Made by a program: the position numbers and the translations under genes. From an uncultured Verrucomicrobiota bacterium (GTDB lineage Bacteria > Verrucomicrobiota > Verrucomicrobiia > Limisphaerales > UBA8199): DNA of 37,764 nucleotides. The notes beneath the pieces were generated by a model that worked only from the letters and a program-made list of their open reading frames with translations, had not been told where the DNA came from and searched no databases. Shown piece after piece: positions 6,001-33,682 of this stretch; position 1 is the stretch's first letter; each line of letters starts with the position of its first letter. The stretch lies in contig CAIQQM010000214.1 in NCBI GenBank assembly GCA_903873945.1, positions 1 through 37,764 on the forward strand, written 5' to 3'.

Positions 6001-6037
6001 ATCGCGACTGCATCCATCTGATTAATGACATATTCAT
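1..6037 (-). CDS. Giant secreted/surface protein, partial (3' end beyond window): IgGFc-binding-like N-terminal region, DUF11-type repeats, SdrD_B/prealbumin-like repeats
   Basis: Reverse-strand reading from ATG at 6037: MNMSLIRWMQSRC...LAIASCAFLFWAMAANAAALVQEFYLPMPEAQIYQAL. The frame at the N-terminus is the same frame that gives DUF11-like text at the left edge (VSATSNLVYTIWVTNFGPSTASSVVVTDA). SdrD_B-like: AKITGFVYNDKDQSGTLTAGDVGLDGVTVQLSTDPNGDGDPADGS and ISGTVWNDTNGFGTNYVGEPGVGNVSLDLVQDVNGNGLADNGEP. Confidence 0.85.
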   Translation of the reverse strand, partial: MNMSLIRWMQSRCAANLARRSGNKLDYTLSAVPRSNGMASLLAMATRRLLRCRLAIASCAFLFWAMAANAAALVQEFYLPMPEAQIYQALSTIEGGIGSAQSSTYSIIVTGNGTVIYYDQWEDGYEIDLSHPTQSTTQIWGDGNDAHGIPPGFAHNPLGLPAGTIITLTNTVPLPRNPSTFLYDGRDRIAATKAIVVTHAGWPVSPGPVFAGAVSVLATIDYGTNYISPVGQDLTNNLFKYVGLFVMAAQDGTSVTIDTDGSGPVAPVTVTLNQGESYLVNGGIKTGASVVASKPVQADLIIGHVGGAYAADWFTLYPVEQWSSAYYTPVATSASGNPAFVYLYNPNPTNITITYNTLVGSGSFSVPGTSSAYQFQMPKGSGAGFTSQGGAKFYALCTVGANPAADTSYNWGFTLLPVGGLTTEADVGWAPGSSDGTKDGSPVWVTPIGPTRIYVDYKGDHNGPLTDPNGNKYDTNYDLVALQSQKIYDPSKDQTGMRVYTLDGTLISAAWGEDPDVAAPGNPYIDAGTTVLPFPVPILTKTSTIVTDVPPVGLSIGDTLAYTVELDNKGLLPLGNTLVIDLPPTNLSYVTNSTTLNGTPISDNVSGPAFPLSSPTGYTIPVILRAGTSTFRYQAKVVGSGVISNWVGVAAMTASTDNTLTPNTNTSTINFTDSGGTTAASYAAGANIFVTLTDPGANTSSSSQQTVPVVVYDATDGDFETITLIETGPNTGVFRNTNGLPSSLSAGVSQEDGTLNVSAGDTLTVSFTDPIYGNSASASAMIQTPTLGKVLYLSSVVTTNTLYRVDPVAAGRTNTVQSVVLGSSGSSTIGAAATSRGFIANSTSLTLSHTPGTGPNRLLLVAVGVGATQATDTPAGGPVTGVTFGGVAMTRVTSVTNSPARSYIYSLINPPSGATNVVVSAGSASSMSVGATTFTNVNQTTPLGAAATNSAATGTTASVTVSSASGELVFSTADWDVGLVAQVVSPGAGQTQLWATNGNYTGAAASTKPGAASVTNTYTASNSQQWTIAAVPIKPASGGGGGGTNTVTFNQTPNFCQNFVMPAGGTVTITNYVTVTSGVGTMPANPAITATLKYGANIILTLSSPIYNSTVGTLVWSGTVASAVTNVAGQAFACTITNNQSGVTYTINYDSTNAPSKITLPTTTVIQITSLGVYDAPYPGGNLVTTPVAGTPLYVRATVSDPFGSYDITSLNLAITAPIPAANINATLTDANVVANTGCAKTYEYAWQTGATTGGYNVAMTANEGTEGITDVAVTSVTLTFLDLGTPSTTEFTSGNNGPATNAFPANSTVCMRVTDLDKVSEGITNINVTVTSSVGDSERVLLTETGTNTGVFTACLTTQTNGGSGSNNSILFAPVGSSITVSYTDPEDSSDQSSATATILPLPGIPGVAVNKTLISPVNGQALVGDTMQFNLQVVNVGSTTLTNVSLTDNFPSSSFSFQSAGLTPNIVTATALTWTNLGLLTPGQTTNISVSFTAIASAVSATNSATASVGATIGTGSASVSITKPALVVTKTLLIPTNGPVNIGSNVTFRIIVKNTGNTTIPTLPMEDTFSHSYLLYVSSTIPTNGSGSGSLLWTNLASAGPLATNTSITNDITMEVVGAGNPALNTATVDFAVDSNGDPVPASSSTVTNLVTGAAKITGFVYNDKDQSGTLTAGDVGLDGVTVQLSTDPNGDGDPADGSLVKITTTDTTGYYEFLNLTIGHYVIVETDLPGFISTAPVNNRIAVNITSLSTNANNNFFDYLPNPVVYATISGTVWNDTNGFGTNYVGEPGVGNVSLDLVQDVNGNGLADNGEPVVASTTTGTNGVYTFQDITPGNYVIRESDLYGYYSTGDTRPPNDNQIGLVITAGLVTNKNDFFDRLEPIAVNDTASALYFTPTKIYPLINDTNFYGDALIITNAVTANGIVTINAGGTNLTFTPTNTGPATITYTISDGRGGCASALITCTVTPLADVGIWKSGNGTVSATSNLVYTIWVTNFGPSTASSVVVTDA

Positions 6038-13441: not shown

Positions 13442-14764
13442 TCAGTTTGGCACGCTGGACGGGCTGGTTTTGCCTTTGCTGGATTTTCCGGGTGCGGGGA
13501 CAGGGCTCTGTTGTGCTGGCAGCGCGTCAATGAACTTGTCCAGATCGCGCTGATCAAAGGACTTGGGGGCATCGGTCTTTGCTCTTTCAGCGGCAGTCAG
13601 CGCAGCCAGTTCGGTGGGTGATTGAACGATGTATGGCGTCAGGAAAATAATGAGCTCAGTTTGACTGTCGTTTTTCACTGAGTGCTTGAAGAGGTTACCC
13701 AGCAGGGGGATATCGCCGAGGATAGGAATCTTCGTGTCGGTTTTTGCCTTCGAGCTTGTCATCATACCGCCAAGGATGACGGTTTGTCCCGAGGGAGTGA
13801 CGGCGACCGTGTTAGCGGAACGTGTTTCGATATAGGGGACAGTGATGCCTTGCGAGATGGTTTGGGTTTGGGTTGGGTCGACTGAGGAAACCTCGGGGTT
13901 GATAATCATCTCGACCATGCCATCCGAAGTGATAAAAGGAGTCACATTCAGGATGATGCCCACATTCTGGTACGTATAGGCCTCAATGGGAGTGCCATTC
14001 AAGCCATTATAAGAGACGCTGGTGACGAGCGGCACCTGCTCGCCGGAGAAGATTTGCGCCGGCTGGTTATTCCGGGCAAGGATGGAAGGGCGCGACAACA
14101 CCTTCGTGCTTCCGGATTGGGCAATGGCACGCACAGTCGCCTGGTAATTTGCGCCAAGGACCTGATACAGACCGGCGGCACCCGCGCCTACGCCGGTTGA
14201 CTGGAAACTGGAAATGGGCTGTCCGACGGCATTGTACTGCAAATTGGAGGGGGCGGTGTTGAGTCCGCTGAGACCAAACACATTGGCGGCATTGGCAATC
14301 GGCTGATTGCCGGTGCCAGTCCAACCTCCCTCGACACCGATATCGGAACCCTGATTGCGAGTGACCTCGAGGAACACAACCTTGATGAGGACCTGGGGCT
14401 TGGGCTTATCCAGATTTGTCAACACCTGCATCACATAAGGCATGGCCTCCTCCGGAGCGATAACGACGACCCGGCGGGTTTCGGGGTCGATGGTAAAATA
14501 GGCGTCGGGGATGGTGCCATTGGCAGGATATTGCCGGGAAACGACATTGCCACTGCCAGCGCTCGACGTGCTGCGACCAGCGGCGCTCCCGCTAGTGCCG
14601 CCACCACCACCGAAACCGCCGCCGCCAAAACCACCTCCGCCACCCGTTCCGCCGCCCCCGGTTCCGCCGGCTCTCTGTTGCGCCTGGATATCGAGCGCGG
14701 CGCACAAACCGAGGCTCAAGATGCAGATGAGGCACTTAAGCCATTTCGAGTATATCGTAATCAT
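13442..14764 (-). CDS. Secretin channel half of split GspD: signal peptide, Gly-rich linker, partial N-domain, secretin domain
   Basis: ORF 13442..14806; probable start MITIYSKWLKCLICILSLGLCAALDIQAQ at 14764, preceded by GAGG. Secretin motifs VLSRPSILARNNQPAQIFSGEQVPLVTS, SANTVAVTPSGQTVILGGMMTSSKAKTDTKIPILGDIPLLGNLFKHSVKNDSQTELIIFLTPYIV. Confidence 0.9.
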   Translation of the reverse strand: MITIYSKWLKCLICILSLGLCAALDIQAQQRAGGTGGGGTGGGGGFGGGGFGGGGGTSGSAAGRSTSSAGSGNVVSRQYPANGTIPDAYFTIDPETRRVVVIAPEEAMPYVMQVLTNLDKPKPQVLIKVVFLEVTRNQGSDIGVEGGWTGTGNQPIANAANVFGLSGLNTAPSNLQYNAVGQPISSFQSTGVGAGAAGLYQVLGANYQATVRAIAQSGSTKVLSRPSILARNNQPAQIFSGEQVPLVTSVSYNGLNGTPIEAYTYQNVGIILNVTPFITSDGMVEMIINPEVSSVDPTQTQTISQGITVPYIETRSANTVAVTPSGQTVILGGMMTSSKAKTDTKIPILGDIPLLGNLFKHSVKNDSQTELIIFLTPYIVQSPTELAALTAAERAKTDAPKSFDQRDLDKFIDALPAQQSPVPAPGKSSKGKTSPSSVPN

Positions 14765-14818
14765 GTTTACCTCGCCGTTGTTGTTAGTTGATAACTTTGG
14801 ATTCAAATGGGCCTCCAG

Positions 14819-16486
14819 TTAGTTGCCGGTTGCGCTGCGAGAGCCGGTAGACCCAAGTGTTGTGGTACTGATAGTCGACGGCTGCGTTTGAGTCGCGCGC
14901 TGCGTGAGCGGGTTATTCTGCCCCAACAACGAGCGGCTGCTGCTGGAGTTCATACGGACAGTGCTGCGATTGAACAGATCAGAGAGAGCCTGCTGGACGT
15001 CCTGCGGGTCGGCGTTTTGCAGGTCATAGACGCCGACGACTTCTTTTCTGCCAGCCGCGGAATCCAGCTCCTCGATCATCTCGGTAATCTGGGGCATGAG
15101 CGTCTTCGAGGCGGTGACAATCAGTCTCGAAGTGCGTGGGTCCGGCACGGCAAGGACGCGTCCAAGTTTCTTTTCCCGATCGCTGCCGCCAGTCGTGGTG
15201 GTGGCAGCGCCTCCCCGCTGCCCGCCAAATCCGCCGCGGAAGAAAAACGGGAATTGGTTCTGATTGCCGCTGCTTGAGCTGGTGTCGTCAGGAAAGAGCT
15301 GGGAGAACTGATTGGCCAGCTCGGTAGGGTCGGCGTTTTTCAGGGTGAAGACCTTCAACTCGGTAACATCAGTGACCGGCTGGTCGATTTTATCGACGGT
15401 TTCGGCAATCGTACCCAGCAAATCAGCCGGGGCACTGACGATGAGCGAATTCGAGCGTTCATCGGCGACGGCGGTGACGCGCGTGGCAGCAGCGCCAGTG
15501 CCAGTGCTGCTGCGGCCACCGGCAGCAGTGTTCCCGCCGCCACCACCTCCGCCTCGTGCGCCGCCGAACATGTTGAAAAGAGCACCTCGACCGCCACCCC
15601 CACCGCCGCCGGTTTGAGTTGATTGAGACGGGGTGAACAATTGCGTAATGAGCGCGGCCAGATCCTTGGCATCAGCATACCGCAACGGCATGACTCTAAT
15701 TGATGAGACGCTGGCAATAGAGGTGTCGAGCGCCGTGACGATTTTGAGCATGCGTTTGATGTCGCTCTTGGTGGCCACCATGATGAGGCTATTGGCGCTT
15801 TCATTGACAGAGAGAGTCGCGGAAGTGGGGAGCAGCACTTCAAGGTTAGCCATTAACTGCGTGGCGTTGGCATACCGGACGGGGATGATTTGCGTCACCA
15901 CTTCATCCGATTTTTCAACGTCCGCGGGATCGTTGCCGGTAACGACTTCGAGATCCGGAGATGTTTTCGCGGATTCCATTGAAATGATCGTTAGAATCCG
16001 TCCGTTACGGCTCACTGCGTACCCATTTTTCTTCAGGACGGAATTGAGCAACTCGACCGTCTCATCTTTGGTGAGGGGCTCTTTGCTCCAGATTTCGACC
16101 GTGCCTTTGACATCGGTTGTCTTGTTGATAACGAAGCCGGCGGCATCACTCAGGTAATCCAGGATGAGGTTGAGGGGTGCGCCGCGGAAATTGAGGCGCA
16201 AACCATTTGTGGTATTTTCGGCGACGATTGTGGGTGGCGGAGTATTTGTAGCGCCTGCCGGGACCGAGACGGACGCAACAGGGGCGGAGGCCGGATTTGT
16301 GCTGACCGTCACGGCCTGGCTCGCCGTGGATGGAAGCGGAGCTTGCTGACTCGCGGCAGCGACATTGGTCGCGGCCAGGACAACCGGAGTGTCTTTGGCC
16401 GGCGTGCCGGGAGCAGGCTGCGCCGTCAGAATCTGAGTGCCTGCGCAAAGCCAGGCAATGAGTGAGAAGAATTTCATTGTTTTCAT
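14819..16486 (-). CDS. Secretin N-terminal (N0 plus serial N1-like domains) half of split GspD
   Basis: Signal peptide; N0-like LRLNFRGAPLNLILDYLSDAAGFVINKTTDVKGTVEIWSKEPLTKDETVELLNSVL; N-domains IIPVRYANATQLMANLEVLLP, VMPLRYADAKDLAALITQLF, VFTLKNADPTELANQFSQLFPDD; Gly-rich insertions; no secretin barrel. Confidence 0.88.
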   Translation of the reverse strand: MKTMKFFSLIAWLCAGTQILTAQPAPGTPAKDTPVVLAATNVAAASQQAPLPSTASQAVTVSTNPASAPVASVSVPAGATNTPPPTIVAENTTNGLRLNFRGAPLNLILDYLSDAAGFVINKTTDVKGTVEIWSKEPLTKDETVELLNSVLKKNGYAVSRNGRILTIISMESAKTSPDLEVVTGNDPADVEKSDEVVTQIIPVRYANATQLMANLEVLLPTSATLSVNESANSLIMVATKSDIKRMLKIVTALDTSIASVSSIRVMPLRYADAKDLAALITQLFTPSQSTQTGGGGGGGRGALFNMFGGARGGGGGGGNTAAGGRSSTGTGAAATRVTAVADERSNSLIVSAPADLLGTIAETVDKIDQPVTDVTELKVFTLKNADPTELANQFSQLFPDDTSSSSGNQNQFPFFFRGGFGGQRGGAATTTTGGSDREKKLGRVLAVPDPRTSRLIVTASKTLMPQITEMIEELDSAAGRKEVVGVYDLQNADPQDVQQALSDLFNRSTVRMNSSSSRSLLGQNNPLTQRATQTQPSTISTTTLGSTGSRSATGN

Positions 16487-16492
16487 ATAACG

Positions 16493-17476
16493 TTATTCCT
16501 GTTCCCGTCGCTGCATCATTCTCTTGATTATATCGCTTTCGGCGCCGCTGGAGGCGGCCGCAGAGGTTGTAGTCGTGGCCGGGGTTGGACCCGGGTTGGC
16601 CGCGTAGGTTTCGGCCCGGCTTACCGGATGCCAATCCCCTTCCTCCTCACGGCGCATTTGCCAACCCACGCCGAGTTCCACTTCGTTGGTTCCGGACGAT
16701 AGTTTGACTGTGTTCGGGGTAATGCTGGCAATTTTGTAGCCCGCAATCGCATCAGCGGTCTTGAGGGCTTTCGTATAATCGGAGCTCGTGCCGTCAAAGA
16801 ACGCAAATATGCCCTTCTCGTAACTCATGATACCCGCGAGCCTGAAGGATTCGACGGGAGCCGTCCGCTGGCGAGCCATTCCGGGCCGGTGTGGAACGCG
16901 ATTGGGGTCAAAAATATTCCTGTCCGCCACAATTTTGAAGGAAGCGTAGTCGAGTTTCAAGGGAGCGTTGTTCGTGCCTGCCGTCACAGCGCTTGCCACG
17001 GGAGCGCTAACTGCGTAAGAGCCGTTAGTCTGGGACTGCCGCTGGCGGCGGGAGCGACGAGAGCGGCGGCTGGGTTGGCTGTTAGTGCTCTTCTGAACGG
17101 AACCGCCGGCTTGCGACATAACAGTTGCCGGCGCGGCATTATCGGTTTGCGCCGCATCGTCCGGCTGGGAAATATCCTCAGCCTCCGTGACGTCATTGGT
17201 CGAAGAGGCAGGGGTTGTTTCCTGAGCTGTGACGAGCAAGCCGCTTATCAGGCCGACCAGCAGAACACTCCAAAGCCGCCAAGCTCTCTGCGACCGCCGC
17301 AACCCGATAACCGCCAACGCGTTTCCGTCGAAGGGTTTTGAGTTTTGCTCGAAGAGCCTGCCACCCCACCAACGACGCACTTTCGCCCCGGGCGCCGCAA
17401 CTTTCCCGCTGCCGTTTTCCAGCAAGCCGGTTTTATGCTCGGAATCGACTTCGCTGCTTGTTGGTTTCGACTTCAT
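16493..17476 (-). CDS. GspC/PilP-like inner-membrane connector protein
   Basis: 327 aa; one TM (LWSVLLVGLISGLLVTAQ), basic RRSRRSRRQRQS linker, HR-like domain FKIVADRNIFDPNR...FRLAGIMSYEKGIFAFFDG...ASITPNTVKLSSGTNEVELGVGWQM; between gspM and secretin genes. Confidence 0.7.
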   Translation of the reverse strand: MKSKPTSSEVDSEHKTGLLENGSGKVAAPGAKVRRWWGGRLFEQNSKPFDGNALAVIGLRRSQRAWRLWSVLLVGLISGLLVTAQETTPASSTNDVTEAEDISQPDDAAQTDNAAPATVMSQAGGSVQKSTNSQPSRRSRRSRRQRQSQTNGSYAVSAPVASAVTAGTNNAPLKLDYASFKIVADRNIFDPNRVPHRPGMARQRTAPVESFRLAGIMSYEKGIFAFFDGTSSDYTKALKTADAIAGYKIASITPNTVKLSSGTNEVELGVGWQMRREEEGDWHPVSRAETYAANPGPTPATTTTSAAASSGAESDIIKRMMQRREQE

Positions 17477-18006
17477 TTTGCTTGCGAATTGAGAACGAGA
17501 CCGCTGATTTGCAGGCCGAGCGAAAGCTGCTGCCCTTCCTTGTCGCGCGCGGCGAGTTCCACTGACTGCAATTTGAGAGCCAGCGGTTCGCTTTCGACAC
17601 TATAAAGGAACCGGCTCAATCGGCTCAGGTCGCCCGTCGTATCGACGCGGCATTCATAGGTCATATACTCGTCACTGTCGTGTTTCCACTGAGGGGTAAT
17701 GGAGGCAATAATGACCCCAGCCTCCTGCGCCCAGCGATCAATCGCCTTGAAAACCTGTTGCTCGGCGGCCGAAGTGTTGTTCGAGAGCGTGTTGTGGGAC
17801 ATCCGATCCCAGCGGCTCCGGAGGTTCTGCGAGCGCAGCAACAACCGGTTGCCATTGGCGATATCTTTGCGCAACTCGGCGATGCGGGCCGAGCGCGCGC
17901 TCCACGATTTGGCAAGCGGCGTCAAGACCAGCCGGTCACCCGCGAACAGGCCAATGGCCGTCGCCGCGAGGATGATCAGCAGTTTCTGGCGGTTCTCAAT
18001 TTGCAT
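17473..18006 (-). CDS. GspM/PilO-like T2SS assembly protein
   Basis: Start at MQIENRQKLLIILAATAIGLFAGDRLVL (18006), overlapping the end of the upstream GspL-like gene; TM, coiled coil, PilO-like C-terminal domain. The longer ORF start at 18210 lies inside gspL. Confidence 0.72.
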   Translation of the reverse strand: MQIENRQKLLIILAATAIGLFAGDRLVLTPLAKSWSARSARIAELRKDIANGNRLLLRSQNLRSRWDRMSHNTLSNNTSAAEQQVFKAIDRWAQEAGVIIASITPQWKHDSDEYMTYECRVDTTGDLSRLSRFLYSVESEPLALKLQSVELAARDKEGQQLSLGLQISGLVLNSQAK

Positions 18007-19456
18007 TTTTTCCTCCCTCGTTCCAGACGAAGCTGAATGTGAATTGGAGCGCCGGCGGCTGACCGCGAGTGGCACCAAGGTTGACATCCGGAATTTGCGG
18101 CACAGTCCGCAGCCGTTCGACAGTCTTGAGCAATGCCTGGTAATTCCGCGAGGTACCCGAGCAAACGACCGTATTGAAATCGCGGATCTCGATGGTTTTG
18201 GCTGTGACACTGCCGTCCTCGGGGAAGGCTTCGGTGAGGCGTCGGAGAATGGTCAGCCCACGGATGGTGTCATCGAACCAAGGACGGTATTGTTTGATGC
18301 TGGCTTCGATGCCTTCGAGTTGGAGCACCGCCGGCTTCATCTTCGACCATTGGGCGCCAAGCCGCCAGAGTTGAAATTGCTGGACGGAAAACAACAACCC
18401 CACCAGCAGCGCCACGGAACCGGCTACGGTAAGGATAGCACGAAGCTTGCCGGAGGAATAACGCGCGGCCATTTGCTGCCACGCAGTGACCTTGGGCGGC
18501 AGAAAATCAAATGCCCCACAGCGGCCGGTCAAGCGTTCGGCAGCCAAGCTGAGGGCCGGAGACACCGCAGCGTCCTTTGGAAATTGCACACCAAATTCGT
18601 CCGCCGCATAGGCTGTAACCACTTCAACCTGCAGATTCATTGGTTCGAGGCGGAGTTCGATCTCGTCTGCGAGCTGGCGGGCGAGATCGCGCGGGCCGAA
18701 GATGCGAACCCGGCGCACGGCGGCGCGGACTTCGTCCGGCAACTGACCGAGGGTGATGCGCACCTCGCGCGCGACGAGGTCACCCTTGAGCTGGCGGAAA
18801 GAGCCCTCGGTTTCGATGGCCCCCTCCAGCGTCCGCAGGGCAATCACCCCACCACCAAAAGTTATCTGAAGGCCCACGTGGCTCTCGCCGATGGCCAGTG
18901 CCAGAACTCCGTTGGAGGAGTCCACCCCGGCTGGCTGGAGGGCGGCGATGCCCAATGCGAAAGCGGACGGCTTGAGCTTTGCCGCCTTCAGCACTTTTTC
19001 CAACACCGCAACATGGGTCCTAGGGATGCCAACCAGCATGGCGTAATCCTTACCAGCAGCCGAATGGCAGCGGGAAGTTGCGACCTGCAGCGTCTGAGCG
19101 TCGCAAGGGAACCCACGCTCGGCTTCGATCTGCAGGAAATTAGCAACGTCAGCCTCTGGCATTTGGGGGATCTCGGTATGGGTGGCGAGGACCCACTTCA
19201 AGGGCAGGCCCACAACGCAGTTGTGTTCGCGCACTTCGAGAGCATCAAGATGATTGCGAATCTCGCGGCCAACCAATTCCGGGTCGTTCGTAAGCGGGTC
19301 GAGCGAAAGCGAGACGGAGAAGGGGTGTTGAATTTCCAGGGCGCCGTTGGGGCGACGCAGGACGAGGCCGTCGAGGCGGCTTCCGTCCAGCACCAGACCC
19401 AACATCCCGGTAAGGCGTTGGCGTTTCAAAAAGTCCAATTTCGGCAGATTGATCAT
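17996..19456 (-). CDS. GspL/PilM-PilN-like T2SS inner-membrane protein
   Basis: Start MINLPKLDFLKRQ at 19456 (ATGA overlap with gspK stop); actin-like PilM-type domain, TM LRAILTVAGSVALLVGLLFSVQQFQLW, PilN-like periplasmic domain. Confidence 0.78.
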   Translation of the reverse strand: MINLPKLDFLKRQRLTGMLGLVLDGSRLDGLVLRRPNGALEIQHPFSVSLSLDPLTNDPELVGREIRNHLDALEVREHNCVVGLPLKWVLATHTEIPQMPEADVANFLQIEAERGFPCDAQTLQVATSRCHSAAGKDYAMLVGIPRTHVAVLEKVLKAAKLKPSAFALGIAALQPAGVDSSNGVLALAIGESHVGLQITFGGGVIALRTLEGAIETEGSFRQLKGDLVAREVRITLGQLPDEVRAAVRRVRIFGPRDLARQLADEIELRLEPMNLQVEVVTAYAADEFGVQFPKDAAVSPALSLAAERLTGRCGAFDFLPPKVTAWQQMAARYSSGKLRAILTVAGSVALLVGLLFSVQQFQLWRLGAQWSKMKPAVLQLEGIEASIKQYRPWFDDTIRGLTILRRLTEAFPEDGSVTAKTIEIRDFNTVVCSGTSRNYQALLKTVERLRTVPQIPDVNLGATRGQPPALQFTFSFVWNEGGKNAN

Positions 19457-20898
19457 CGCGTATCCTTTGCCGCCAGCCATTTCTGGCGGACATCATTGCC
19501 GAGGGCCCAGCCGAGCTGGCTCAGGTCCTGGCGGTAGATGATTTGAGGTGTGCCACTGCTGGTGTCGAAGATAAATTTCACCCGCCGGTACCCCCGACCA
19601 TGCGGCCCGAGAGCCGCCACATCCGCGGCAAACTGGTAACTTTGGGTTGTGAGATAATCTCCCGCTTCAAGAAGTGACGCGTAGCTGGAGTAATTTTGAC
19701 CCAAGGCATCGACCACCCAGGCGATGGAGTTGAGATTGCCGGCATTCGACTGCCGGTAATTCACCAGTAACTGTCCGGCACTGGTATCGCCGCCCAACAA
19801 TGCAGCCAGCACCGGCGCGCTCGCGGTGTTCACATTGACGCGACCCTGGATATAGCTGCTGCTCGACATCATGATATTGTTGGCGATTTGGGCAAATTCC
19901 GTCGAAGTCATCCCGCTCCGGCGATAGAACTGGAGTGGGCTTGTGATGGGAGGGGTTAGGGGGAAGTTGTTTGCTGGAGGGTTCGTGAAGGTTGACTGGT
20001 TGTTAGTGCTACCGGAACCGCTGGTTATTCCCAGCCGGGTGAGAATCTGAGTCGCCCGCGGCTGGCCAAAACTGCCCTGCAGGAGGGTACTTAAGCTTCT
20101 GCTGGAACCACCTGTCAAACTGCTAGTGAGGTTGGTGATGTTGACTCGCGCGGTGCCGCTGCTGTTGGTGGCGGGGTTGGGTTCGCGGGTATAAACGGTC
20201 ACATATTCCAATACGCCGGCGTCCAGCATCCCGTTCTGGTTTTCGTCATTTTCGTTCGGGTCAAGGACGCCATTGCGATTTACGTCTTCACCCACCAGAA
20301 TATCCATACTGGCACCGTACAGGAGGCGCAACTCGTCCACCGTCTCGAAAGGGGCGCTCTTGCATTCGTAAGCCGGCTGAAGCGTTTCGTAATACATCTC
20401 GGTTGTGCCGGGACCGTTGGTGCTGCGCCAATCGAGAATGGCCGTCGTCAAATCCGTGGTCATGCGCGGCAGCCATACGATTTGATTGCTCGTAGCCCTG
20501 TTCAAACTGAGCTTGGACGCCTCGTCCACGAGCCCGAAACATAATTTGCCGGGCCCGACCGGATTATTGGTGTCGCGTCCAATCAGCCAGAAATGCGATT
20601 CGCCCACAGGCACTGCGGCGTTTGAGTAGGTTGTTATGCCAGGCAGAACGCCATTGGTCGCGTTGTATGAAAGTGTGGAACTGATGTAACGGGCTGCGCC
20701 GCCAATCGCTTCATCGGCGGATTGGGCTGAAACCCGGTTATCCGAGGCGCGTAGTTCAAAGGTCATGGAATTCGCGAAATAGAGAGCAAGGCTGACAAGC
20801 CCGAATGCGATCCACAGAACAATAATGAGCGTCGAGCCGCTCTCCGCAGCGCCAGCTGGCAGCCGCTGCCCATCTTTGGAATGCGTACCGGCGATCAT
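19453..20898 (-). CDS. gspK: General secretion pathway protein K
   Basis: 481 aa; pseudopilin-like N-terminus GSTLIIVLWIAFGLVSLALYFANSMTFELRASDNRVSAQSADEAIGGAARYI; GspK-type LSLNRATSNQIVWL...DLTTAILDWRSTNG and FETVDELRLLYGAS. Confidence 0.88.
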   Translation of the reverse strand: MIAGTHSKDGQRLPAGAAESGSTLIIVLWIAFGLVSLALYFANSMTFELRASDNRVSAQSADEAIGGAARYISSTLSYNATNGVLPGITTYSNAAVPVGESHFWLIGRDTNNPVGPGKLCFGLVDEASKLSLNRATSNQIVWLPRMTTDLTTAILDWRSTNGPGTTEMYYETLQPAYECKSAPFETVDELRLLYGASMDILVGEDVNRNGVLDPNENDENQNGMLDAGVLEYVTVYTREPNPATNSSGTARVNITNLTSSLTGGSSRSLSTLLQGSFGQPRATQILTRLGITSGSGSTNNQSTFTNPPANNFPLTPPITSPLQFYRRSGMTSTEFAQIANNIMMSSSSYIQGRVNVNTASAPVLAALLGGDTSAGQLLVNYRQSNAGNLNSIAWVVDALGQNYSSYASLLEAGDYLTTQSYQFAADVAALGPHGRGYRRVKFIFDTSSGTPQIIYRQDLSQLGWALGNDVRQKWLAAKDTR

Positions 20899-21605
20899 AA
20901 TGCGCCTCCGATGCTGTTCGTCGTAAGTGTCTGTGTGACGAGCGGCACAACAATTCCGAGCGGGTGCAAATTCCGGGCGTCAACGCCGGGTTCGGCCATC
21001 AGTTGGATACTAACGCGGACCGCCGTGGGCAGATTAGTATCGCCCATGCTTGTGTCCCAGGTATTGCGCCATTGCGTGCCATCGTAGCACTCAAATTGAA
21101 CACTGTTGATGTTGCCCATGAGCCATTGCTCATCAGGTGTCGGCATGCTGGTGGCAAGCAAGTTGCGGTTGACGTAGCGCACCAGGTCTTTGCCGGCCTG
21201 GTTCCGGTCGGCGGGATCTTTCAGCTGGTAATAAACTTCCTGGATGTCACCCCACGGTTCGTCATCGTTGATGGCCCCGGTGGAAGTGAAGAAATCAAGG
21301 CCGAGGCCCGAGGCTGAACCGAGGCCCATGGTCACGCCCATGGTCTGCGCCCCGCACTTGAAGTCGCCGGCGAGAATATTGTACGGTCCGACCGTGCCTT
21401 GCAGATCCCGGCGCAGAATAGCCAGGGCCTGCGTTGCGGGTAGAGCAGCATCCAACGTTGCCGAAGTTTTTTCCCGGAGGCGCACGGCGCTGAAAAAGAC
21501 GCCACCGATCGCCACCAGCACGATTGCCGAGATGGCGACGGCCAGTATGACCTCGACCAAGGTAAAGGCCGGGACAGGACGCCTGGCTGGAAGGTGGCGT
21601 GTCAT
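20895..21605 (-). CDS. gspJ: General secretion pathway protein J (pseudopilin)
   Basis: Start MTRHLPARRPVPAFTLVEVILAVAISAIVLVAIGGVFFSAV at 21605; prepilin motif; ATGA overlap with gspI. Confidence 0.85.
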   Translation of the reverse strand: MTRHLPARRPVPAFTLVEVILAVAISAIVLVAIGGVFFSAVRLREKTSATLDAALPATQALAILRRDLQGTVGPYNILAGDFKCGAQTMGVTMGLGSASGLGLDFFTSTGAINDDEPWGDIQEVYYQLKDPADRNQAGKDLVRYVNRNLLATSMPTPDEQWLMGNINSVQFECYDGTQWRNTWDTSMGDTNLPTAVRVSIQLMAEPGVDARNLHPLGIVVPLVTQTLTTNSIGGAL

Positions 21606-22045
21606 TGCGAGAGATTGGTTGATAACGCGCTGTCCACGACAGTGCTCATCCGCACCGAGTAGTCCTGCCCTTGAACGGCGAAGACCACTTCGGCGGAAAG
21701 CAGGCGCAGGGGGGTCAAGGTCGGGTCCACGCCCCACGCATCATTGCGCACGGTCCAGCGGAACTGCCGAGTGCCATCATATTCGGTGCCGGACTGGGTG
21801 CCGCCGCTCGTCCAATTCGTCGTCACGATCGTTTCGTTGAGAATTCGCTGGGCAACGCGGGCGGCTTCACCCTTGCGCGCGGCGACGCTGCCGGCGCGGC
21901 TGGCAACGTGCATGCCTTCAAGCGCCACCGGGATGACGATGGCCATGAAAACCAATGCGGCCAGCACTTCCGCGAGAGTAAACCCCGCCCGGGAACGTGC
22001 GTTGCGAGAGGCTGCGGCGTTAACTAGGCTGCGTTCGAATTTCAT
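21602..22045 (-). CDS. gspI: General secretion pathway protein I (pseudopilin)
   Basis: 147 aa; RSRAGFTLAEVLAALVFMAIVIPVALEGMHVASRAG prepilin motif; position between gspH and gspJ. Confidence 0.83.
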   Translation of the reverse strand: MKFERSLVNAAASRNARSRAGFTLAEVLAALVFMAIVIPVALEGMHVASRAGSVAARKGEAARVAQRILNETIVTTNWTSGGTQSGTEYDGTRQFRWTVRNDAWGVDPTLTPLRLLSAEVVFAVQGQDYSVRMSTVVDSALSTNLSQ

Positions 22046-22727
22046 AGTTCAAACGGTTGCGCGAAAGTGTCACCCAGAGGGATGAACCCTCGCGGTCGCT
22101 CAATTGCAGCATCCGGGGGCTGCCATCGCTTACCGAGCCATCCGGCAGAAAACGGATCGTAGGCAGGCTCGGGTGTTTGCTGATGACCGGGGGCACGCTG
22201 GCCGTGCTGACCGGCATGGTGCTGCTGCGAACGACAGCCGGTTTGACGGAGTTCGCGCTGGACACTTCAATCTTCACATCCCGATCGAGCTCGAAATCGA
22301 CCGCTTTCGAGTCGCCATCGTTGTTATTGTCCTGATAACTGACCGCCGCTTCGAGCCCATAGGTCCGGCGCTCGGCATCGACCCACAGCTCCATCGGCAC
22401 GCCTTCAGACACCGCACGGCTCTGGCCGGCCCTTGTGAGGGCCAGGACGCGACGGGCTTCCGAGTCCAGCGCGCGGCCGGTGAAGAAGTGCGACAGCGTG
22501 GGCGCGGTGACCGAGACTGCCATGGTAAGGATCGCCATGACGAGAATGAGCTCGATGAGGGTGAAGGCCCTCAACAGGGACGACGATGGGGGCTGGTGGG
22601 CGCACCCTCGGCTGTGGCGTGTAGAGCGAGTGAGAGAAAAGCCGGACCCGGACAATACATACGGAGTCGCAAGGGACGTGGTTCCCCCGCTGCTCTTGCT
22701 ATTCGATTGTCCAATCATTGGCTTCAT
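22020..22727 (-). CDS. gspH: General secretion pathway protein H (pseudopilin)
   Basis: 235 aa; RAFTLIELILVMAILTMAVSVTAPTLSHFFTGRALDSEARRVLALTRAGQSRAVSEG; position between gspG and gspI. Confidence 0.8.
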   Translation of the reverse strand: MKPMIGQSNSKSSGGTTSLATPYVLSGSGFSLTRSTRHSRGCAHQPPSSSLLRAFTLIELILVMAILTMAVSVTAPTLSHFFTGRALDSEARRVLALTRAGQSRAVSEGVPMELWVDAERRTYGLEAAVSYQDNNNDGDSKAVDFELDRDVKIEVSSANSVKPAVVRSSTMPVSTASVPPVISKHPSLPTIRFLPDGSVSDGSPRMLQLSDREGSSLWVTLSRNRLNYEIRTQPS

Positions 22728-22762
22728 TTTCAGGCCGGGACCGGCCTCCTTGTGCGCTTATT

Positions 22763-23206
22763 TCAGCGGCGCTGGGCCTGCCAGTTTCCGATGGGCGTAT
22801 TGGCTCCCGGCGTCCCTTGCGAGCTGATGTCGTAGAAACTCGGGTTGTGTTTGCCCGGGCAATCGTAGATGTATTCGCTGCCCCATGGGTCAAGGGGGAT
22901 GCTTTCCATGTAGGGCCCGTGCCAGCTCACGGCGTCGCGGGGTTGCACGACCAAATCATTCAGCCCGCTCTTCCCCTTCGGGTAGTAGCCGTTGTCCACC
23001 TCGAAGGAATCGAGCGCAGTTTTGAAGTTGGCGATCTGCGTCTGGGCGGCAGTGACGCGAGCCTGCTCGCTGCGGCCCATCACCTTCGGGTAAACAATGG
23101 CCGCGAGGGTTGCCAGGATAACGAGCACGAGCAACATCTCCACCAAGGTGAAGCCGCAGTTGTGCCGGCGAATGATTCGGTTTCGGTTTAGAGGTTGAAT
23201 TTTCAT
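22763..23206 (-). CDS. gspG: Major pseudopilin GspG
   Basis: 147 aa; NCGFTLVEMLLVLVILATLAAIVYPKVMGRSEQARVTAAQTQIANFKTALDSFEVDNGYYP...DPWGSEYIYDCPGKHNPSFYDISSQG, typical GspG. Confidence 0.95.
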   Translation of the reverse strand: MKIQPLNRNRIIRRHNCGFTLVEMLLVLVILATLAAIVYPKVMGRSEQARVTAAQTQIANFKTALDSFEVDNGYYPKGKSGLNDLVVQPRDAVSWHGPYMESIPLDPWGSEYIYDCPGKHNPSFYDISSQGTPGANTPIGNWQAQRR

Positions 23207-23259
23207 AATAATTTAAACAATTGTGCCAAACCTGTTTGATTTTCCAAGTTGTGTAACCA

Positions 23260-24510
23260 TCACTTGATGTATTCCTGCATTGTGAAGATCGGCAGCACCA
23301 TGCTGATGAAGATTGTCCCGATGAAACCGGCGATGAAAAACAACAGCAGCGGCTCGGCAAACGCGACAGCCGTCTTCAATTCACGGTCGAGATCGCCCTC
23401 GGTGACGTTGGCGATGCGCACGAGTTCCGCGTCCAGCTTGCCGCTTTCCTCGGCGACGGCCACCATTTCGGAGACGGACCCCGGGAACAGGCCACGGCAC
23501 TCGGCGAGGCTCGCACCGAGCTGGCCGCCCTGCTGAACCCGCTCGATTGCGCGCGTGACGGCATCGACGAGGATTTGGTTGCCGATGGATTTGCGGGCGA
23601 CATTGAGGCCCTGCACCAGCGGGACGCCCGCCCCGAGGAGCGTGCCCAGCATCCGGCAGAACCGGGCCATGGCAAACTGAGCGACCAACGGCCCCACGAG
23701 CGGCGCGCGCAGGACCAATCCTTCCCAAACACGCCGCCCTTTCTCGGATGCGAACCAACTCCGAACGAGCAACACCGCGACGACCACGCCAACCACCACG
23801 AACAACCCATAGGACCGGACGATATGGCTGACGGCGAGGACAATTTGCGTCGGCAGAGGAAGTGCGGCACCGAGACCGGAGAAAATGATCTGGAACTTTG
23901 GAATGAAAAAGGTGAGGAGAAAAACGAGCACCGAAAGCGCGAGCACGAGCAGAATGCTGGGATAGAGCATGGCCGCGAGCACCTTTGAACGCAGGTCCTT
24001 TTCGCGCGCCTGGAAGTCCGCGATCTGCGCCAACACGACGTCCAAGAAACCGCCCGTCTCGCCCGCCTGCACCATTGCGGTATAAACCCGCGGGAAAGTG
24101 TCGGGGGATTTGCTCATCGCGTCTGCCAGCGACATGCCGTCGATCACGAGATCATGGATTTCCTTCCACTTCGCCTGGGCGGCCGGTGCGGAGGTTTCTT
24201 TATGCAGAATCACCAGCGCGCGGCTCAACGGGACGCCAGCAGCGAGCAGGCTTGAGAGCAGGCGGGTGAAATTCTCGAGCGACCGCGCAGAAACCCTGTG
24301 GGATTTCCGGGAAAAGGAGAACGATTTCAGGGATGCGGGCAGAGCCAGGCTTTTCTCGCCGTTGCCGGCGCCGGCTTTTTCGGCGAGGCTGATCGGCCGC
24401 AAACCCAGGGCCTCGATTTGCCGGAAGGCTTCGGGCCGACCGACCGCTTCAAGCTGGCCCTCCGTAACCCCTCCGCTCGCCTGCAAGCCTTTGTATTGAA
24501 AAATCGGCAT
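23260..24510 (-). CDS. gspF: T2SS inner-membrane platform protein GspF
   Basis: 416 aa; MPIFQYKGLQASGGVTEGQLEA; duplicated T2SSF domains LLSSLLAAGVPLSRAL and MLGTLLGAGVPLVQGL. Confidence 0.95.
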   Translation of the reverse strand: MPIFQYKGLQASGGVTEGQLEAVGRPEAFRQIEALGLRPISLAEKAGAGNGEKSLALPASLKSFSFSRKSHRVSARSLENFTRLLSSLLAAGVPLSRALVILHKETSAPAAQAKWKEIHDLVIDGMSLADAMSKSPDTFPRVYTAMVQAGETGGFLDVVLAQIADFQAREKDLRSKVLAAMLYPSILLVLALSVLVFLLTFFIPKFQIIFSGLGAALPLPTQIVLAVSHIVRSYGLFVVVGVVVAVLLVRSWFASEKGRRVWEGLVLRAPLVGPLVAQFAMARFCRMLGTLLGAGVPLVQGLNVARKSIGNQILVDAVTRAIERVQQGGQLGASLAECRGLFPGSVSEMVAVAEESGKLDAELVRIANVTEGDLDRELKTAVAFAEPLLLFFIAGFIGTIFISMVLPIFTMQEYIK

Positions 24511-24519
24511 AGTCGCCTC

Positions 24520-26292
24520 CTACGGTTGGTGTCTGGTTGGCAGCGGCGGCGGAGCGGGAGCCTTTGGCATGCCGCCCGGCTCATCGATTTTTGTCGTTCG
24601 CGCCACTTCCTTGGCGGTGGTCACGCTCAGAACTTCCTCGACGGTAGTAATGCCCATGCGAACGAGACGCCAGCCGTCATCGGCCAGGGTACGCATACCG
24701 GCATGCCGCGCGGCGTCCCGAATCACGTCGCTGGAGACATTCTTTAGTATCAACCGCCGGATTTCGTCGTCACTGTCCATCCATTCGAAGATGGCGTGGC
24801 GGCCGAAGAACCCTGTCTGGCGGCATTCCTGACAGCCAACCGATCGGAAAATTGTCGTGCTGGCCGGGATACCAACCTGAGCCTTGAATGCCTGGGCTGC
24901 CAGCGATGTGTCCGGCTGTTTGCACTCATTGCACAGCACGCGAACCAGCCGCTGCGCCAGCACCGCTTCAAGCGATGAAGCGACAAGGTAAGGCTCCACT
25001 CCCATATCCACGAGCCGGGTCAGGGCCCCCGGTGCGTCGTTGGTGTGAAGGGTCGAAAAAACAAGATGGCCGGTGAGCGAGGCCTGCACGGCGATTTGAG
25101 CCGTTTCCTGGTCGCGAATTTCCCCGATCAGAATCACGTCCGGATCATGGCGCAGAATGGACCGCAAACCGCGCGCGAAAGTCAGGCCCGCCTTCTCCGA
25201 AACCTGGATCTGGTTAACCCCCTTGAGCTGGTACTCCACAGGATCCTCGATCGTGATGATCTTGCGGACGGCATCGTTGATCTCGCTCAACGCCGTGTAG
25301 AGTGTTGAGGTCTTGCCGCTGCCGGTCGGCCCGGTCACCAGGATGATCCCATGCGGCATCTGGAGCACGCGCTGGAAGCACTGATGTTCCCGCTCATCCA
25401 TGCCCAACTGACCCATGCCGCGTAGCGTCGCGTTCTGGCGCAGCAGCCGCATCACTACCGCTTCGCCATGCAGCATCGGGATCACCGACACGCGAATATC
25501 CACCTCGTTTTCGTCTATGCGAATCTTGATCCGGCCGTCCTGGGGCAGACGCTTCTCGGCAATGTTGAGGTGGCTGAGGATTTTTACCCGCGAAACAATC
25601 GCCGGCTGGAAACGTTTCAACTGGGCAGGCACCGAGGTATCCTGCAGGACACCGTCAATCCGGTAGCGGATCTTGAATTCGTCTTCAAAGGGTTCCAGGT
25701 GAATGTCGGAGGCGCGCAACTCAATGGCGTCCCGAAGCACCTGGTTGACGAAACGGATAATGGAGGCGTCTTCAGCGGCGTTGTCCAGGTCTGTGTCGTC
25801 CTCATGATGTTCGTCCACTACCAGGAAAGTGGCATCCTCGCCGAGGGTGCCGATCGTGTCCGCGCCGACGCCAAGCCGCTTTTTCATCTCCCGCTGGATA
25901 GCTTCGCTGGTAGCCAAGACGGGGCTGAGGTTCAAGCCCGTCATGCTCTTGAGCGCATCCAGCCCCTGCGTGGCAAAGAGGCGGCTGGTGGCGATTTCAA
26001 CGGTCCCGTTGAGCCGCCGCAACGGCAGCAACTCTTCCTTTAGCAGAATCCTAGCGGGGAACAGGGAGAGGAGCTCCCGGTCCGGCTCGATATCGTCGAG
26101 AGTCGTGAATGCGAGATCGTATTCCCGGGCCAGCCACTTGAGGACATCCGCCTCTTCTTGAACTGCCTGGCCGGCACCGGACTCGTTTTGCCGCGACAAA
26201 ACCGCCGCATCGGTCACAGACAACTGCCTAGCTGCGACCATTCTATCGAGCAACGGTTTTGCCGGCGGTTCCTGAACAACGCTCTCGCTCAT
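24520..26292 (-). CDS. gspE: T2SS ATPase GspE
   Basis: 590 aa; Walker A GPTGSGKTSTLYTAL, Walker B DPDVILIGEIRDQETAQIAVQASLTGHLVFSTLHTNDA, CxxC pair CNECKQP...CQECRQTG. Confidence 0.96.
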   Translation of the reverse strand: MSESVVQEPPAKPLLDRMVAARQLSVTDAAVLSRQNESGAGQAVQEEADVLKWLAREYDLAFTTLDDIEPDRELLSLFPARILLKEELLPLRRLNGTVEIATSRLFATQGLDALKSMTGLNLSPVLATSEAIQREMKKRLGVGADTIGTLGEDATFLVVDEHHEDDTDLDNAAEDASIIRFVNQVLRDAIELRASDIHLEPFEDEFKIRYRIDGVLQDTSVPAQLKRFQPAIVSRVKILSHLNIAEKRLPQDGRIKIRIDENEVDIRVSVIPMLHGEAVVMRLLRQNATLRGMGQLGMDEREHQCFQRVLQMPHGIILVTGPTGSGKTSTLYTALSEINDAVRKIITIEDPVEYQLKGVNQIQVSEKAGLTFARGLRSILRHDPDVILIGEIRDQETAQIAVQASLTGHLVFSTLHTNDAPGALTRLVDMGVEPYLVASSLEAVLAQRLVRVLCNECKQPDTSLAAQAFKAQVGIPASTTIFRSVGCQECRQTGFFGRHAIFEWMDSDDEIRRLILKNVSSDVIRDAARHAGMRTLADDGWRLVRMGITTVEEVLSVTTAKEVARTTKIDEPGGMPKAPAPPPLPTRHQP

Positions 26293-31137: not shown

Positions 31138-32370
31138 CTAACGAATGACCTCTTCCGTGAGAAACAGCTCGGTCTCCCTGCCTGAGTCCGCCACTTGAAT
31201 CCGAACTGAGCGGTCCCCGATAGCCAGGCAGCGCACCAACACATTCGTTATCCCCACGCGCACCTTTGCGGATTCTCCCACAGCCAAAGTCTGATCATTG
31301 ATCAGCGCCAGCGGCCGATTTCTCGCCGCAGAAATCCCTTTGAGCAACAGTTGGGGCGGTGCGGGTGCCTGCACCTGGCTGTAAACAAGGCCGTTCGTAA
31401 CCGACGCGGATTTCGGACGGGGCATTTCGACGTTACGAATATCTCCCAGGTCGGCCGCCTTCAAACGGGGGCTGACACCCCACCGCATCCAATCCAACAC
31501 ATCGTTGAACCCATATTCCTTTTCCGCCGCAATGAATAAATTGATCTGCCCGCGAGTGTAGGCATTTCGCAACATCTTTTTCATTTGATCCTCCTCGTGA
31601 AGCGTATCCATCAGCAAATAAGCAACCAGTTCGCAGAAGCCTTCATGGGCCTCGCGGCTGAGGGTCTTCCTCCGTCCCGAAGGCACATTTTCAAAAACCC
31701 AGGCATGTGAATACTCATGCGCGCAAGTGGCCTTGAACTCCGCCAGCGGCAAAGCGCTCATCAGGCTGATCGAGTGGCTCAGGCCGTTACGGTTTGTCCG
31801 GCTGTGGATATACCCCAATATATCCGGGCACTCGAAATCGTTTCCCGCCACCGTCAACTCGTCGTACAAGTTCACGCGGTCCACCAGGCCAACCGCCACG
31901 TTCGTCGAAGGCAGCGTCAGAAACCTCGAAAACTTTCTGTCCAATATGTCCCGGATCCCCTCGCATATCTCCCTGGCTTTCGCCTCATCCAGGACGGCGG
32001 TTTTGGCGTCGCGGGCACAGAGGAAACGGCCGTCCGCCAGTTTGGTATAGTTCGCCCTGACCGGCAGGCCGCAGATATAGCATTCGTCGGGGCATGTAGC
32101 GCAGTCGTAACAAAGAAAAACTTTTTCGTGCGTCACCTTATCCACGACCGTGTAAATGGCGGAGCCAAAAGGTTTGCCACAAACACCGCAGTGGTCGGGA
32201 TCCGCCCCGAGCAGAGGCAGACAGCAACAAGCATAAGCCAGCAGAATTAGAAAACCCGCAAGCGTCCACAGCCGAAGGCGCGAATCGAGAAAAAAATGAT
32301 CTTTAACGCCATGCGGGTCCGGAAGAACCGCTTGCGGGTGATGCGCCGTTTTCACGATTGTCGCAGCCAT
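31138..32370 (-). CDS. Membrane-anchored LIM-like zinc finger + DA1-like metallopeptidase
   Basis: 410 aa; TM LWTLAGFLILLAYACCCLPLLG; CGVC...CYDC and CYIC...CARD zinc-ligand pattern; CYICGLPVRANYTKLADGRFLCARDAKTAVLDEAKAREICEGIRDIL; HExxH segment ATCAHEYSHAWVFENVPSGRRKTLSREAHEGFCELVAYLLMDTL. Confidence 0.8.
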   Translation of the reverse strand: MAATIVKTAHHPQAVLPDPHGVKDHFFLDSRLRLWTLAGFLILLAYACCCLPLLGADPDHCGVCGKPFGSAIYTVVDKVTHEKVFLCYDCATCPDECYICGLPVRANYTKLADGRFLCARDAKTAVLDEAKAREICEGIRDILDRKFSRFLTLPSTNVAVGLVDRVNLYDELTVAGNDFECPDILGYIHSRTNRNGLSHSISLMSALPLAEFKATCAHEYSHAWVFENVPSGRRKTLSREAHEGFCELVAYLLMDTLHEEDQMKKMLRNAYTRGQINLFIAAEKEYGFNDVLDWMRWGVSPRLKAADLGDIRNVEMPRPKSASVTNGLVYSQVQAPAPPQLLLKGISAARNRPLALINDQTLAVGESAKVRVGITNVLVRCLAIGDRSVRIQVADSGRETELFLTEEVIR

Positions 32371-32433: not shown

Positions 32434-33006
32434 CTAACGAGAAACCGGTTTGGGCACGTGAACGTGCTTCGTATCCATGAGCTTGTTGAGCAAAGACTCT
32501 ACATCGTTAGCGACCGTGAGCATGGAGTAATGCCGAGGTGTGAGAAACTGCTCGTCACGAGCGTGCGCGAGAAACTGAAGCAGAAAGTCATAGAACCCGC
32601 GGATGTTGAGCAGTCCGACCGGCTTGAGGTGCAGACCAAGCTGGAGCCACGTGAAAACCTCGGCCACCTCCTCCAGCGTGCCAATGCCACCGGGAAGCGC
32701 GACAAATGCATCCGCGAGTTGAGCCATCCGATGTTTCCGCTCGTGCATGGTTTCGACGATTATCAGTTCGGTCAGGTCGCGATGATCGCGCTTCTCTGCG
32801 ACCATGGCACGGGGAATGACGCCGATAACCCTGCCTCCAGCCGTCATGGCAGCATCCGCCAACGTCCCCATCAGGCCAACACCGCCACCACCATAAATAA
32901 TGGTGAGGCCGCGCCGGGCGCACGCGGTCCCAAAAGCCGATGCCGCCGCCGCATATTCAGGAGACACTCCAAAACTGGAGCCGGAGTAAACACAGATGCG
33001 AGTCAT
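32434..33006 (-). CDS. LOG-family protein (putative cytokinin riboside 5'-monophosphate phosphoribohydrolase)
   Basis: Start MTRICVYSGSSFG at 33006; YGGGGVGLMGTLADAAM, MHERKHRMAQLADAFVALPGGIGTLEEVAEVFTWLQLG (LOG PGGxGTxxE motif). Confidence 0.92.
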   Translation of the reverse strand: MTRICVYSGSSFGVSPEYAAAASAFGTACARRGLTIIYGGGGVGLMGTLADAAMTAGGRVIGVIPRAMVAEKRDHRDLTELIIVETMHERKHRMAQLADAFVALPGGIGTLEEVAEVFTWLQLGLHLKPVGLLNIRGFYDFLLQFLAHARDEQFLTPRHYSMLTVANDVESLLNKLMDTKHVHVPKPVSR

Positions 33007-33025
33007 AAAATCCTGGATGTTTCCT

Positions 33026-33682
33026 TCATTTTGGAAGGGCGTCGAAAAAAGCTGCGAGTTTGGCAGCATCAAGCTTGTCGTTGGTCCGGACGCCGCGGCA
33101 AACGTCAATGCCGAAAGGCCGAACGGCGGTAATAGCCATGGCGACATTGGACGGATTGAGCCCCCCTGCCAGAAAGAGCGGTTTGCGGATGACCTCGCGG
33201 ATGCGGCGGCTCAACGCCCAATCGTGAGTGCGGCCAGTGCCTCCAAGCTCCTTCGTCGCGAGTGCGGGGTTGCCGGAGTCGAGCAGGATGGCATCCACAT
33301 GAGTTGCAGCCGCAACCGCCAGATCGACAGACTCCGGGCCGGTGACATGGATGACCTGAACCAAAGCAATGCCCGGCAAGGCGTGGCGGAGTTGCTGATA
33401 AACGTCGGACGGAACATAGTCGCACAGCTGAATCGTATTTGTGCGGCAACGCCGCTGCTGAGCGATGATGACCTCCGCCCGAAGCTCGCTCGTGAGCAGA
33501 ACAGTCGCGATGGGTGGCGGCACCGTTCCGGCGATATGCATAATCGCCTCCTCGGAAATCACGCCAGGCCCGCTGGGCATTGCGGAGACAAGGCCAATCG
33601 CCGAAGCGCCATATGCAATCGCCAGCTCCGCTTCTTCCGGAGACTTGATGCAGCAGATTTTAACCTTTGGACGGGTCGGCAT
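33026..33682 (-). CDS. Phosphoribosylanthranilate isomerase-like protein (non-canonical TrpF)
   Basis: Start MPTRPKVKICCIKSPEEAELAIAYGASAIGLVSAMPSGPGVI at 33682 (or 33691); ILLDSGNPALATKELGGTGRTHDW, PLFLAGGLNPSNVAMAI, GIDVCRGVRTNDKLDAAKL. Confidence 0.82.
   Translation of the reverse strand: MPTRPKVKICCIKSPEEAELAIAYGASAIGLVSAMPSGPGVISEEAIMHIAGTVPPPIATVLLTSELRAEVIIAQQRRCRTNTIQLCDYVPSDVYQQLRHALPGIALVQVIHVTGPESVDLAVAAATHVDAILLDSGNPALATKELGGTGRTHDWALSRRIREVIRKPLFLAGGLNPSNVAMAITAVRPFGIDVCRGVRTNDKLDAAKLAAFFDALPK

Follow-up and report, generated by a model that had tools for sequence, protein, structure and literature searches.

The window analysed here is a stretch of 37,764 nucleotides from an uncultured Verrucomicrobiota bacterium of the order Limisphaerales (GenBank assembly GCA_903873945.1, contig CAIQQM010000214.1, positions 1 to 37,764). 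Its positions 31138..32370 on the reverse strand contain an intact open reading frame (ORF) that starts with ATG and encodes a protein of 410 amino acids. The best explanation of this protein, to which we assign a probability of about 0.7 from sequence comparisons and structural models, is a probably exported bacterial gluzincin of the LIM-DA1 family with a PilP-like C-terminal domain that would serve for docking. It is most likely a periplasmic zinc endopeptidase. The hydrophobic N-terminus is followed by a LIM-like zinc module, a gluzincin domain with the HExxH motif, and the C-terminal domain. An earlier reading of the sequence alone, hereafter the original prediction, had placed a membrane-anchored LIM-like and DA1-type peptidase in exactly these bounds. 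This observation is real and the core of the protein was correctly recognised. The gene is the sole DA1-like match in its own genome assembly.

Bacterial homologues of DA1 are already present in the literature, and thus novelty does not lie in the central idea. The secretion signal and the PilP-type domain of the window group seem not to have been described before. No mention of the exported form with the PilP-like tail was encountered in the literature searched, which covered few subscription papers. Since most such papers lay outside its coverage, this is weak evidence of novelty.

The zinc module and the peptidase domain

The LIM-like module occupies residues 58-126 (31993..32199; all domains of the protein are on the reverse strand) and is predicted to bind two zinc ions. 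It lies N-terminal to the peptidase, and its eight ligands C61-x2-C64-x22-C87-x2-C90-x6-C97-x2-C100-x17-C118-x2-D121 are conserved in all 24 sequences of alignment A4, with D, C or H at the eighth position. Such variation is usual in LIM domains, whose consensus spacing is C-x2-C-x16-23-[HC]-x2-C-x2-C-x2-C-x16-21-C-x2-[CHD]. All ligands are present, but the linker between the fingers has six residues instead of the canonical two, and the module is therefore called LIM-like rather than LIM. Residues 81-140 of a Chloroflexota relative, L106, pass the Pfam LIM cut-off with 26.7 bits; this block also precedes the peptidase and aligns with the module of the window protein.

The DA1-like zinc peptidase domain (residues 129-312, 31435..31986) matches the Pfam family and is modelled by AlphaFold2 mostly with a predicted local distance difference test (pLDDT) value above 90. 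Both models are confident overall, with pLDDT 84.9 for the one built on 24 sequences and 89.9 for that on 23. The motif HEYSH (residues 218-222, 31705..31719) is predicted to provide two zinc ligands and the catalytic Glu. It is followed by REAHEGFCE (residues 239-247), which contains the invariant stretch E243-G-F-C-E247 (31630..31644). In the alignment of the family profile to aminopeptidase N, E243 pairs with the Glu of the motif NEGF of M1 aminopeptidases, and thus zinc is likely to be bound by H218, H222 and E243. By analogy with gluzincin chemistry, E219 is likely to be the general base.

An alignment of 36 sequences, 20-47% identical to the window protein, has invariant C87, C90, C97, C100, P103, C118, G186, H218, E219, H222, E243, E247 and Y271, whereas C61 and C64 are nearly invariant. 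The HExxH motif and the downstream Glu are thus present as a predicted metal site. Loss of these ligands in relatives had been named as a sign against the original prediction; H218, E219, H222 and E243 are kept in all 36 sequences. The same conservation, extending to E247 and unlike that of a pseudoenzyme family in sequences so diverse, makes a catalytically dead zinc-binding scaffold very improbable.

In the Pfam scan of the window protein, DA1-like (PF12315) comes first (E 7.9e-5, 22.6 bits, gathering score 25), followed by LIM (PF00412; E 0.018, 15.7 bits, gathering score 22.9), SprT-like, M78 and M1. Peptidase M1 (PF01433) also remains below its gathering score (11.7 bits against 27.7), and no other gluzincin family scores better than DA1-like. 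NCBIfam yielded no significant family. Of the 36 sequences of alignment A1, scanned singly, 34 match DA1-like at E <= 0.1. Eight relatives exceed the curated cut-off of the family: L090 (37.0 bits), L019 (32.0), L013 (30.5), L035 (27.5), L102, L005, L003 and L028. The first of these is 42% identical to the window protein, and DA1-like is the sole family reported for it (E 3e-9). Since its relatives exceed the cut-off, the window protein is considered a member although its own score does not.

Alternatively, the protein could be a separate gluzincin of the M1 or IrrE/M78 type that shares with DA1 only the HExxH...EG..E active site. Indeed, Peptidase_M1 matches 15 and M78 matches 12 of the 36 sequences, L106 scores higher with M1 than with DA1-like, and the best sequence matches in PDB are to aminopeptidase N. 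However, DA1-like ranks first for the window protein and for nearly all Verrucomicrobiota/Lentisphaerota-type relatives scanned singly, and for L090 it is the only one. The matches extend beyond the active site, covering positions 2-123 of the DA1-like model in L028 and 177-211 in L005, and the LIM module precedes the peptidase, which is the domain order of DA1. An independent origin thus appears improbable. The predicted combination of a LIM-like module with a DA1 peptidase is supported by the leading Pfam family, the scores of the relatives, the conserved ligands and the confident model.

The termini

The hydrophobic segment at residues 36-56 (32203..32265) is a probable Sec signal peptide, as suggested by a scan for hydrophobicity and cleavage sites; the model has a helix at residues 30-50. 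A candidate signal peptidase site follows residue 56, between LGA and DPD. An export-type N-terminus, that is, a hydrophobic core with a permissible signal peptidase I site, was found in 65 of 69 family members by the same simple scan, which is permissive and is not SignalP. The four exceptions are two Chloroflexota proteins and two proteins with doubtful starts.

The original prediction proposed an N-terminal transmembrane anchor. The hydrophobic stretch that it described exists, but the N-termini of the family are better explained by a cleavable signal peptide. It is possible, although unlikely, that the segment is uncleaved and the enzyme is a periplasmic peptidase anchored in the inner membrane. 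The N-terminal extension ahead of the hydrophobic stretch is long, the stretch itself comprises about 20 residues, and a helix is predicted at residues 30-50. On the other hand, the signal peptides of most relatives are short and of the standard kind, and plain A-x-A sites directly ahead of the first zinc cysteine are seen in many. Hence the N-terminus of the window protein is probably a Sec signal peptide that is cleaved.

No ubiquitin-interaction motif (UIM) was found in the window protein by the Pfam scan, as the original prediction held; in its place there are a short extension and the hydrophobic segment. Since no UIM is seen, ubiquitin activation of the plant type is not expected.

The C-terminal extension of about 110 amino acids noted in the original prediction exists, but it is not a mere extension. 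It consists of a poorly ordered linker, mostly of low confidence (residues 313-340, 31351..31434; pLDDT < 50 at 323-333), and a confidently folded PilP-like beta-domain of about 65 amino acids (residues 341-405, 31156..31350; pLDDT above 90 at 343-403). In the Foldseek search with the full model, the first two ranks are taken by PilP domains from Neisseria and Pseudomonas (2ivw and 2y4y; probabilities 0.98 and 1.00, E 0.07-0.08, TM-scores by target 0.43 and 0.54). Thus the domain is PilP-like by its modelled fold, not by sequence. It was found in 36 of 37 relatives from the Limisphaerales-type clade of the window protein and in none of 31 others.

The same domain occurs in other exported proteins of the order. 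Small exported proteins with the motif DPFFP contain it, and so does, as judged by eye, a protein with Sel1-type repeats. It also follows thioredoxin domains in proteins with signal peptides and precedes a transmembrane segment and a NERD domain. In the NERD-domain proteins L045 and L053, the PilP-like domain forms the exported N-terminus and is followed by the transmembrane segment. Such company of signal peptides, thioredoxin and transmembrane-NERD domains is as expected of a periplasmic domain.

Several observations weigh against an exported LIM-DA1 peptidase with a PilP-like domain. The window protein falls short of both the DA1-like and the LIM cut-offs of Pfam. At E <= 0.001 the LIM-peptidase module has no match among the solved structures in PDB; weaker structural matches include treble-clef fingers and distant zincins, and the matches among viral predicted structures include SprT- and IrrE-like zincins. 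The n-region is long (about 35 amino acids) and the LGA site is not ideal for signal peptidase, so that an uncleaved anchor is possible. The match to PilP has a poor E-value (0.07), a sequence-profile search of PDB with the C-terminal domain yielded no PilP, and Pfam produced for this domain T2SSB alone, below the threshold (E 0.01).

Distribution and genomic context

Protein searches yielded matches in 47 of 291 genomes of the phylum and in 17 of 287 genomes of the class, about one third of the latter to the C-terminal domain only; nearer relatives were searched as well. A genome scan with an alignment of five sequences as the query identified 26 loci, in Limisphaerales, other Verrucomicrobiota, one Lentisphaeria, two Chloroflexota and one Wallbacteria. 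No relatives were found in the viral contigs searched. In the midpoint-rooted tree, built of bacterial rows with no plant sequences, the clade of the window protein (38 rows from Limisphaerales and other Verrucomicrobiota) is separated at full support (100/100) from Lentisphaeria, Chloroflexota, Wallbacteria and the remaining sequences of the phylum. Of all rows, L083 is nearest to the window protein (99/99).

DA1 is best known from plants, and bacteria could have acquired the gene recently from a plant or another eukaryote. However, the family has deep and diverse branches in bacteria, spanning all the lineages listed above, and its members have bacterial export signals and no UIM, which makes such a transfer extremely improbable.

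The gene lies 63 bp behind a co-directional upstream gene of the LOG/"lysine decarboxylase" family (32434..33147, reverse strand; Pfam PF03641, E 8e-44), which we regard as a neighbour only, and trpF. It faces a gene of a trypsin-PDZ protease of the DegP/HtrA type. No promoter-like site was found, and terminator-like sites are no more common than in shuffled sequences.

In many nearer relatives, the gene sits between the transketolase and AlgH/YqgE genes in the same direction. Among 37 relatives from the clade, several of them in loci too short to tell, 17 have transketolase (at least 75% identity) next to the gene and 20 have AlgH/YqgE there; L083, the sister of the window protein, retains AlgH downstream. 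However, in the genome of the window the transketolase and AlgH/YqgE genes are adjacent on contig C267 (3288-5905) without a DA1-like gene between them, and thus the linkage is not obligatory. The assignment of function from gene neighbours was mostly rejected, as a linkage that is frequent but can be lost is of little help in this respect.

The window also contains, about 5 kb from the gene, a cluster similar to type II secretion systems (T2SS) and type IV pili (13442-26292, reverse strand). Its ORFs are GspE, GspF, pseudopilin-like, GspK-, GspL-, GspM-, and GspC/PilP-like, of which Pfam confirms only GspE, GspF and the secretin parts. The T2SS-type secretin is distributed between two ORFs (13442-16486, reverse strand), each with a start resembling a signal peptide: ORF 14819-16486 has N0 and three Secretin_N domains, and ORF 13442-14806 has the Secretin channel. 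This is either a naturally split or a frameshifted GspD. No direct homology was shown by hhalign between the C-terminal domain of the peptidase and the GspC/PilP-like ORF of the cluster (probability 1.5). At the other end of the window, a very long ORF (2-6037, reverse strand, at least 2012 amino acids) runs off the window and, by eye, is rich in repeated adhesin-like segments.

A possible mechanism and known systems

The exported LIM-DA1 peptidase would act as follows. The N-terminal signal peptide would route the chain through Sec and then be removed. Two zinc ions would fold the LIM-like module ahead of the gluzincin domain, and a third, bound to H218, H222 and E243, would together with the general base E219 allow the enzyme to cut a restricted range of proteins in the periplasm or at the surface. 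By analogy with the module required in plant DA1, the LIM-like module might position the substrate or gate the active site. The PilP-like beta-domain on its flexible linker could tether the enzyme to a partner in the envelope. The ORF, the domain make-up, the conserved metal ligands, the predicted model and the export-type N-termini of the family are observed, and from them we infer signal-peptide cleavage, proteolysis and docking; docking is also speculative, as is any regulation. Since the window carries the T2SS/pilus-like cluster about 5 kb away, a docking partner of the secretin or pilus type was considered. The product would then be a clade-specific envelope protease that is docked by its PilP-like domain on such a machine and processes exported proteins, with zinc occupancy or the thiol state of the LIM module as a switch instead of ubiquitin. 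This more detailed scheme is quite unlikely as it stands.

Plant growth control poses the question of how the LIM-like region controls the DA1 peptidase. A solved structure of the DA1 peptidase module was not found in PDB. Bacterial relatives that are compact, lack UIMs and are probably exported could yield a tractable structure and could show the role of the LIM-like module when ubiquitin is absent.

Plant DA1 has an HEMMHx15EE motif and a LIM-like region, and both HEMMH and Cys274 of the LIM-like region are needed, as the AEMMA and C274Y substitutions abolish activity (Dong et al. 2017, PMC5322733). In the plant DA1/DAR family (PF12315), as in the window protein, whose best Pfam match, just under the cut-off, is to this family, a LIM-like zinc module precedes an HExxH...E peptidase. 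However, the window protein is probably exported rather than intracellular, has one LIM-like module, no UIMs and an additional PilP-like C-terminus. The spacing to the downstream Glu also differs, being HExxH-x20-E in the window protein and HEMMH-x15-EE in DA1 (PMC5322733).

High similarity of DA1 to Roseiflexus sequences was stated by Dong et al. (2017, PMC5322733) with reference to Burroughs et al. (2011). The Chloroflexota relatives L105 and L106 are probably of the same sort as these LIM-peptidase homologues. L105 and L106 look cytoplasmic, contain more C-x2-C pairs (eight were counted) and lie beside Ser/Thr kinase genes, whereas the window group is probably exported and has the C-terminal PilP-like domain. 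Several Ser/Thr protein kinase-like genes surround both Chloroflexota genes, and a signalling context is possible. Bacterial LIM domains were reportedly associated with membrane-linked peptidases by Burroughs and colleagues in 2011.

With the exported relatives found in Lentisphaeria and in other classes of the phylum (L003-L031, L107), the window group shares the signal peptide, the LIM-like module and the DA1-like peptidase. However, these relatives mostly have additional N-terminal C-x2-C fingers and lack the PilP-like domain. Finally, the periplasmic beta-domains of the PilP and T2SS GspC type may have the same fold, as indicated by Foldseek at E 0.07-0.08, whereas the domain of the window protein is fused to a peptidase and its sequence similarity to them is below the thresholds.
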